A stretch of 64,000 nucleotides of DNA from Agelas oroides (taxonomy: Eukaryota; Porifera; Demospongiae; Agelasida; Agelasidae): the NCBI GenBank assembly GCA_949130485.1, contig OX422190.1:4560861-4624860 (forward strand), in the 5' to 3' direction. The notes under the pieces are model-generated. The model did not search any database and was not told where the DNA came from. It saw only the letters and a program-made list of their open reading frames with translations. Each line of letters starts with the position of its first letter. Positions within the stretch are counted from its first letter, which is position 1. The position numbers and the translations under genes are program-made. Shown in pieces: positions 45,501 through 48,500 of this stretch.

Positions 45501-48500
45501 AATATGTAAGACAACTACAACTGGTGAGTTCTAACTCTGTGTGCCTACACATATTTGTTCCTATGAAGATACCTTTTGTTGTGAGAATGCTCTTTTATCT
45601 ATACAGCTTTTAAAGTCCAATGCTGACTTTTTAAAGGCTAAAACTGTGGACAGAGTGAAGAAACACTTGAATGCGATGGACAATGAAATCAAGAAAAAAC
45701 TTAAGTATGCCACAATTCTCAGAACTGCATGAAGTCGAGTGGCTCTAAAACTTCAGTGCCTATTTCTTATGTGTTCATGTGTGACATGCATGAGGTAGTT
45801 AAAGGCTATTACATATAATTGCCGAGCGCCTTAGCGCGAGGCTACTAATCTTGCAGTGCGTGTTCTCGGTTGGCGGGGTGTGGCTTTGACTTCCGTCCCG
45901 CTTTAGGAATCTAATTTGTCACGCTTTAGGAATCCAATTTGTCACGCTTTAGGAATGCAATTTGTCACGCTTTAGGAATGCAATTAAAGGTGTGGCTTGT
46001 GCGCAAACATCCGTCCCGCTTAGGAATGCAATTAAAATATCCTGTTTACAAAAAGTTGTGTACACTTACGTAAGTTTATCGTTCTCAGCGCTGTAGCGGC
46101 GCTAGCGGTCTCATTGTCGCGACGTCAAAATGGCAAAAATTGTGATGGGAGCGAGGAAGAAAGAGCTAGGAGCCTGTCGCGAAAACGGAAGATAAGACAG
46201 CGAGCGTAAATGCAATGCCGTGAAGTCCGCGTTGAGAACAATGAGTACGAGTCTTGAGAAACGACCATATCCTCGCGTTCTGTGCGGTTCGAAACCGCGC
46301 TCACATCCTCAAACTCTTTCAACGTAGTACGTATATACGCTTTGCCCACCTCACACTTCTCACACTTCGTTGCACATGCATGACCAGTCCCAAAAGCACG
46401 TGCCACGCCTACTAACTAATCCACACGTGTTGGTTCAAAGGTCATTGAGATGCGCGCGAGCCATACACTGCGAATACGTACAGCTAGTATCACTAACGTT
46501 CAGCTGAGGTTTAAACAGGACCATTCGGTGTCTAGACAGTAGGGGTAGGCTGATTGTGCTCAAAAATCTACCTATTATGCTCTATACAAATGCTCCTATT
46601 ATGCTCAAACACCTGCAAACTCTGTAGCTCTCTGCACCACACTCACCCCTTTCGGGTCAATCGAACAAGTTGGCTGCATTTTTCTAGCACCAGTGTGTAG
46701 CGGTGCATTTACCCTAACCTTCCGCTTCCGCATTAATTCAGACCGTGTGGGGCTCGAAGTTTGCTTAGTAAGGATGTTGGAGAAGAAGCGGTGACCTGTG
46801 AGCTGCTGCCAGTCGTTTGACTCTCATTAATGGGCTAGTCATCACCATTATAGTCACCACATGGCCAAGTTTCCGTAAAACTGTAATTAATGATGTAATT
46901 TCCTCAGCGAATGCTTGTATAGCATACCTATTACACTCAAATAGCAGTATTACTGTACTCAAGATTTGCTTTTTCAGATCACAAACCATAGAACTTACTT
47001 CCATTCGGAAGAGCTGTCTGGCCTTTTTCATGGAGCTGGTCTCAACCCTCTGCTTTGGCACTCAATTGGTCCCCGAACCAGCTCTCATTCAGATGCTCAT
47101 GGACACAGTGTTCACAGAGCGACAGGAGACGAAGATAGGAACACAGGAATTCAGCCCTTACACCAAGACCAAGAGTGATGAAGTGCCAGTCATCCGCTCT
47201 TTCCTGCTACAGCTGCTTCTGGAGCACAAGTGTGTGGCTAATCAGCTGGCCACCATGGTATCACCAATTAGCCCCACCCCCTCCCCTTTCCTGTAGCGTT
47301 GAGCAGGTGAAGATGTACCTGGAGGACTACTACCAGAAGTCCCATCAAGCATACACTCGAGGAGAGCTGGACCAGAACCTTTTCCTTCTTTGCATACAGT
47401 GCTTTGAGGTCAGCAAATATGTTTGATGTGAATATATAAGCATGCTGAGCTGTTTGGCCTGCTTATGTGCTCTTGGTGGAACAAACAGCAACGATCATGT
47501 ATTACTACAATACTTTATTTATTCTAAGAAAATGCATGCAAATTGAATAATTTGAGTGGGCATGCATTAAACTAGATTCACCCAGGAAGTGACAGATTAG
47601 ATCACGTGTTGTAGTGGATTCAAATGTGATGTCAAAATACAAATGCAAACCAACTTCAAGTTTCTGGCCTTCATTTCTCCGTCTCAGGTTTCTTGTAGTC
47701 AAAAAGTAATACTCTATCACTAACTCTTACTTAGAATGAAAGGATGCACAGCTGCTTAGAAAAGCTAGCTAGCTCTGCCTTTTACCCCATCCAATACCAA
47801 GCTGTTTAGTTGCGTGATGCTACAAAGTTGCACAATCTGCCTCTACTGTTCCATTTGAATCAGCACATTATTACACAATTTCAAATACTTTCACATTTTC
47901 AGCGGAGCATTAACTACACAACTTTACAACTACAGTGCTAATACAAAGATCTTTCCAACTACTGGTATACATTTAAAGAGTTATTCCCTCTCTCAGGATG
48001 CTCTAAACAAAAAGTATGCCCGGAAGCCTTCCCAAGAGAGAGTTACTGGAATCCTCCAGGAGGGCAAATTGGCCCTGCAGCACCACACAGGCTACTCGCA
48101 TAGCGAAATCTCACTGGACTACATCGAGGGGATAGCAAAGATCCGGTTTGCCCTCTCTGTTGTTGCAGAGTTGTTTCACAAACATGTAGACATGAGGTCT
48201 GCCCTCCTTCATGCTGTCAGGGAAGTGTGCACTGACACTAGCATAAACCAGGTTGATAGTACTAGGCAGAGTGACATCACTGGACCTGTCCTCTACCTTC
48301 TGAAGTTGATTGTGAGGCAGTATGGCTTTCCCTGCCTTGCAGAGGTGTCTGCAGCCTGCGCATGGGTTGTACCCCCTGAACTGAAGAAGGTGGATGAGGT
48401 AATCATAATAGGCCACAGTTTTGATAGAGCAAGCTGAATCTCCTTATTTGAGATATCACGCGTGCAGTGAGCCTACTGATGTGCATATGTTTGTACTCTG

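Follow-up and report, generated by a model that had tools for sequence, protein, structure and literature searches.

The gene in the window, a 64-kb stretch of DNA analysed here (contig C8, 4560861-4624860), codes for an RNF213 that has no RING at the site where mouse RNF213 has one. An earlier note on this DNA had read it as a natural RING-less RNF213, and that reading is supported and should be widened to the window gene (locus A) and seven paralogous loci (B to H). In our judgment it is very probable that A is a true RNF213 gene, that the RING exon was lost in the ancestor of A to H, that the copies have been constrained since, and that A works as an RZ-type enzyme. This rests on what was observed, namely, the missing exon, the open junctions, the homology, the RZ residues and the low dN/dS ratios. 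The genome searched comprised 259 Mb in 141 contigs.

The RNF213 identity of the window gene was confirmed by phmmer against PDB sequences through its E3 blocks, AAA4 and RZ finger. The joined exons 34-38 (numbered as in the earlier note) matched RNF213 with an E-value of 3.3e-19, and the later E3 blocks, the RZ finger and a piece of the C-terminal domain were collinear with mouse RNF213 (E 1.2e-30); in each case all nine distinct matched sequences were RNF213. By these two matches, A has the E3 scaffold blocks that surround the RING site in RNF213/mysterin. AAA4, a later AAA stretch and a stretch within the mouse hinge, placed by the domain borders in PMC7311170, were also collinear with mouse RNF213 (E 4.3e-70). 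Walker A and Walker B are present in both AAA3 and AAA4, as in the dynein-like AAA core of RNF213/mysterin, and for these motifs the earlier claim on AAA3 and AAA4 is borne out. The C3HC4 RING domain of a RING-type E3 ligase was not found in A.

All parts of the gene lie on the + strand. The AAA3 Walker A stretch (GETGCGKT, 14495..14614) and Walker B stretch (FFDEANTT, 19028..19255) match paralogue H at 57% and 61%, and the joined AAA3 stretches match Pfam AAA_5 (E 3.1e-5) and AAA (E 4.1e-5). An AAA2-like stretch with GMGKS was read from an open frame at 7780..7980, and from its place in the order it is tentatively AAA2. The AAA4 Walker A stretch (GKPGSSKS, 23171..23389) and Walker B stretch (VVVLDEVGLAED, 23566..23787) fall within the same phmmer match to mouse RNF213 (i-Evalue 2.1e-48). 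Exon 33 (42482..42666) matches paralogue C at 74% and F at 66%. Exon 34 (45427..45523) carries the helix before the RING site (FVEHVVL; FVEHVLL in mouse) and was placed by comparison with mouse and the paralogues, its phmmer stretch taken alone being below significance. Exon 35 (45607..45704), directly 5' of the RING site, and exon 37 (47297..47408), in the E3 module, were read from the DNA and compared with the paralogues. Exon 36 (46978..47229), the E3 block directly 3' of the RING site, and exon 38 (47997..48398), also of the E3 module, are covered by the phmmer match of the joined exons, exon 38 having been compared with the paralogues as well. The first half of the RZ finger (CPRGHPFFVGE, 49914..49948) and the second half with the nucleophile Cys, two zinc Cys and the base His (50010..50107) match PF20173 when joined (E 1.9e-20), so the finger is intact, as the earlier note had it. 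A C-terminal domain stretch (52422..52607) matches residues 4029-4102 of the mouse RNF213 chain and the paralogues at 44-85%. Elsewhere the window has a long low-complexity tandem repeat (10594-11569) that is open in several frames on both strands, and open frames on the - strand (60659-61879) that resemble a non-LTR reverse transcriptase.

The RING is missing at a splice junction. Exon 34 joins exon 35 at phase 0, exon 35 ends in AA before gtatgc at phase 2, and exon 36 starts after cag with A TCA CAA, also at phase 2. The 35-36 junction reads DNEIKKKLK-SQTIELTSIRKSCLAFFMEL without a stop. In the window the same joint reads DNEIKKKLK-SQTIELTSIRKSCLAFF, and the flanks of the RING are therefore adjacent in A. 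In mouse RNF213 the E3-RING is residues 3940-3999 (PMC7311170), which sit between KASKKF and DHRKAIEKHAQFRHMCNSFF and are the very residues missing in A, while the helices on the two sides of the site align between A and mouse without a gap. The clean absence and the direct in-frame joint described in the earlier note thus hold. The intron at the site (45705..46977), where paralogue I has its RING exon, contained no RING by motif, Pfam or profile search. About 675 of its 1273 bp are a dispersed repeat (45816..46490) with at least 62 matches in the same genome (40 of 545 candidates scored) and with 23-bp tandem units near its start. A search of the intron for inverted repeats found no pairs.

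With exon 36 as the query, nine E3-bearing RNF213 loci were found in the genome (9 matches of 10 candidates). Apart from A on contig C8 these are B (C8:4643782), C, D and E (C13:8121497, 8221300 and 8318304), F (C20:5673436), G (C20:3749500), H (C1:21290426) and I (C5:7608702). The earlier note had proposed asking whether paralogues keep the RING, and only I of the nine does; A to H have none at the site. The direct phase-2 joint is open and could be read through at five of the eight RING-less loci (A, B, C, F and G), with introns at the RING site of 1273, 204, 414, 486 and 1790 bp, respectively. For H the matching donor and acceptor were seen separately, the joint itself being unread, and in D and E the exon 34/35 block and exon 36 are spaced nearly as in C. 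The upstream exons of G and H were recognised by weak profile matches only (i-Evalues 0.0002-0.011). Because the RING is absent at the site in other RNF213 loci of the genome too, its absence in A is not an assembly accident.

Next to the window gene lies locus B (C8:4643316-4648600), in which E3, RZ and C-terminal stretches were recognised. Its exon 38 is interrupted by one stop, and the 40 kb of sequence that follow the window contained nothing that matched AAA3 or AAA4; from its sequence B is probably a truncated copy. On C13 there are five AAA4 matches (8083503, 8138270, 8191802, 8238316 and 8287597) against the three exon-36 matches, and this set consists of tandem copies, two of them apparently without the E3 part. 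A further 14 AAA4-like loci lie at C1:24.9-25.7 Mb (7), C3:18.47-18.64 Mb (3), C4:5.74-5.86 Mb (2), C5:5168644 and C23:3592400. They occupy open frames of 291-640 aa and are 34-44% identical to the AAA4 stretch of A; for one of them, L053, a piece matched mouse RNF213 (E 1.7e-32). The RZ queries gave no match at these 14 loci, though the same queries missed some known RZ fingers. These loci are perhaps a second, diverged RNF213-like family.

Locus I has a complete C3HC4 RING within one 189-bp exon (C5:7606780-7606968) whose acceptor and donor are both phase 2, with the spacing C-x2-C-x13-C-x3-H-x2-C-x2-C-x10-C-x2-C. The exon lies 3' of a weak match to the exon-34 helix (E 0.003) and 5' of the exon-36 homologue; exon 35 of I itself was not recognised. 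That the RING of I is coded by a single 189-bp phase 2-2 exon points to the loss of one symmetric exon in A to H. The earlier note had named a phase 2-2 RING exon as a finding that would speak against its reading; an exon of this kind was indeed found, though not in A: it belongs to another gene, on contig C5, and there it shows what A is missing. As a genome query, the RING of I gave 4 matches from 6 candidates, and apart from I itself none of them was better than E 0.9. RINGs that bind an E2 usually have a hydrophobic residue at a position where the RING of I has Arg, and a basic linchpin after the last Cys, which I lacks. Its RING therefore may bind no E2.

The earlier note had seen no RING pattern at the site by eye, and motif, profile and Pfam searches were negative as well. 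A strict C-x-H motif misses the RING of I, which has C-x3-H, so a relaxed motif was run in six frames over the 64-kb window, and only low-complexity matches on the - strand at 10.6-11.4 kb were found; a one-frame motif would miss a RING split by an intron. Pfam hmmscan of four + frame translations (all three of 45524-46990 and one of the three of 42667-45430) found no family up to E 10. In the control the mouse RING hit PF13920 at E 2.8e-8, but the diverged RING of I reached only E 0.0042, and therefore Pfam alone is not decisive. A profile built from the mouse and I RINGs was run on six frames of loci A to I and on 20 kb upstream of the window. It found I at E 1e-32, which is by construction, and the next best stretch had E 0.43. 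This negative is stronger than that of Pfam. The mouse RING as a genome query gave 35 matches from 38 candidates and none at A to I; since it missed the RING of I too, it is not counted as evidence of absence. One of its matches, at C4:5711931 and thus close to an AAA4-like locus, is a RING in a gene with repeat-like exons, presumably LONRF-like, and was rejected as not being RNF213.

In the RZ finger of human RNF213 the zinc ligands are C4505, H4509, C4525 and C4528, the nucleophile is C4516 and the base is H4537 (PMC11549300), and the mouse dyad is C4462/H4483 (PMC12075652). The RZ finger of A has all six equivalents, as expected of the RNF213 family. The zinc ligands and the nucleophile Cys are retained in all nine loci and the base His in six (A, B, C, D, G and H); it is replaced by Tyr in E and Leu in F. 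In locus I, GGVGY stands where A has GGVHH; an additional residue precedes the second pair of zinc Cys, and Tyr occupies the position of the His, so that the base His is absent. The mouse RZ finger as a genome query found six places. Of the nine loci it picked up A, C and D alone, and little can be read into the lack of matches elsewhere. Two other RZ-like matches, at C19:4430857 (L044) and C23:333203, lie in open frames of 2104 and 1860 aa. The cysteine repeats of L044 we take to be NF-X1-like, and the gene hence ZNFX1-like. ZNFX1 was rejected as the identity of the window gene, in which the RZ finger is continuous with RNF213 E3 exons, the ZNFX1-like gene lying elsewhere.

The loss of the base His in I raises the alternative that RNF213 has been split into two machines, an expanded RZ-only clade in which the RZ-complete, RING-less A, B, C, D, G and H would transfer ubiquitin, and a single RING gene without the RZ base His, which would act through its RING or as a regulator. 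In its favor, changing mouse His4483 to Ala reduces activity (PMC12075652). If this is the case, both kinds of RNF213 may cooperate or differ in their targets, and the task of the RING would be confined to one gene. However, the pattern is not reciprocal, as E and F have neither RING nor His; of the three loci without the His one has a RING and two do not, so that loss of the His does not track retention of the RING. Moreover, the RING of I with its Arg and without a linchpin may bind no E2, and its RZ halves are 3.4 kb apart, their splicing being assumed. We therefore regard such a split as unlikely, both as a division of labour among the loci and as a description of RNF213 in this genome.

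Whether the RING was lost or gained was addressed with a maximum likelihood tree of seven exon blocks (609 columns with many gaps, 9 taxa, LG+G4; D was left out). The tree separates I and mouse from A, B, C, E, F, G and H with a UFBoot of 87; G+H has 100 and C+E 96, and weak nodes among the RING-less genes have 53, 67 and 69. With mouse as the outgroup, the tree implies that a single symmetric exon was lost once, before A to H diverged, and it is on this ground that we infer loss rather than gain. The converse is that the gene had no RING to begin with and acquired it by insertion on the branch to I and vertebrate RNF213. Without a root the split costs one change in either direction, and a single phase 2-2 exon is also what an inserted domain would look like. 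Since the root is assumed, much data are missing and some nodes are weak, a gain on the I/mouse side keeps a little probability. It would require a duplication predating the divergence of this animal and vertebrates together with a loss of the A-H type in vertebrates, whereas with a root taken from the species tree mouse falls outside and the RING is the original state.

Pairwise dN/dS was obtained for seven pairs among the seven RING-less loci A, B, C, E, F, G and H, and was 0.251 for A-B, 0.206 for A-C, 0.226 for A-F, 0.160 for C-F, 0.155 for C-E, 0.245 for G-H and 0.197 for B-C. Of these loci, A, C, E, F, G and H had no stops in the exons that were compared. These values (0.155-0.251) and the retention of the RZ zinc ligands and nucleophile Cys in nine of nine loci make it very improbable that the copies are decaying pseudogenes and that loss of the RING was part of the decay. 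Such decay would fit B, which has the exon-38 stop and, over the 40 kb searched beyond the window, neither an AAA3 nor an AAA4 match; and because B, which is probably broken, has a ratio no higher than the other pairs, a low dN/dS is no proof of present function. These ratios sum up constraint of the past and of the present alike. For A itself the pseudogene explanation was rejected, its compared exons having no stops, its dN/dS being low and its RZ residues intact. That the intron of A, which is longer than those of B, C and F and bears a repeat, hides an assembly gap, a misjoin or a missed RING exon is hardly credible, as the window has no N, the same junction recurs at other loci with one intron of just 204 bp, and both the RING profile and the relaxed motif were negative in it.

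The preferred explanation is thus a RING-less RNF213 that works through its RZ finger. A single phase 2-2 exon containing the entire RING would have dropped out in the common ancestor of A to H, eight of the nine loci with an E3 module, bringing the flanking helices together without a frame shift, and the RING-less gene would then have been duplicated and its copies retained under constraint. In mouse and human RNF213, ATP at AAA3/AAA4 activates the protein, the C-terminal domain recruits the E2 and the RZ Cys and His carry out the transfer (PMC12075652). The catalytic parts that could be tested are present in A and the absent part was found not to be needed for most of the activities studied in mouse and human, and from this we infer that A works alike, which includes its being transcribed, its transfer of ubiquitin and its having a substrate. 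In A, ATP at AAA3/AAA4 would activate the E3 module, the C-terminal domain would recruit a cysteine-reactive E2 of the UBE2L3 type, and the RZ Cys would accept ubiquitin and pass it on with the aid of the RZ His. Judged by its residues, A is most likely a working RZ-type transthiolating E3. Against the explanation as a whole stand the exon 35 that was not found in I, the lack of the RZ base His in E and F, and the partial impairment of Toxoplasma vacuole ubiquitylation on RING deletion (PMC11549300).

The RING of RNF213 is atypical, without a linchpin and with an elusive role, and it is the site of Moyamoya mutations and of binding by Shigella IpaH1.4 (PMC12440826). Auto- and LPS-ubiquitylation are independent of it (PMC7311170, PMC11549300, PMC12440826), and its deletion leaves these and the ubiquitylation of Salmonella and Listeria intact (PMC11549300, PMC7311170). 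RZ mutants, on the other hand, fail on Salmonella, Listeria and Toxoplasma alike (PMC11549300, PMC7311170). PMC11549300, PMC7311170, PMC12075652 and PMC12440826 bear out the earlier note where it calls the RING dispensable for some activity, the one exception being the Toxoplasma vacuole, whose ubiquitylation was partly impaired when the RING was absent. No description of a natural RING-less RNF213 was found in the literature searched, which covered few subscription papers and no preprints, and there is thus weak evidence that this is an RNF213 subfamily undescribed there. A constrained gene set without the RING supports the RZ finger as the essential catalytic unit beyond vertebrates. It is seemingly an experiment made by nature in which the RING of RNF213 was removed, and the presence of RING-less and RING-bearing RNF213 in one genome provides a built-in comparison.

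Mouse and human RNF213 (PDB 6tax, 7oik and 8s24) and A have, in the same order, AAA4, a later AAA stretch, the hinge, the E3 scaffold, the RZ finger with its catalytic dyad and, as far as one matching piece shows, the C-terminal domain; mouse RNF213 has the RING (3940-3999) whereas A does not, its flanks being adjacent without a gap. In architecture A is like the laboratory forms of RNF213 with a deleted or mutated RING (PMC7311170, PMC11549300, PMC12440826), but there the removal was engineered, while in A it is natural, lies at a splice junction and recurs at several loci. Paralogue I shares with A the RNF213 AAA4, the E3 blocks and the RZ halves, but it has the RING, lacks the RZ base His and has LEEVG in place of LDEVG in the AAA4 Walker B. 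The ZNFX1-like gene (L044) also has an RZ finger, but NF-X1-like cysteine repeats in place of the RNF213 E3 blocks.
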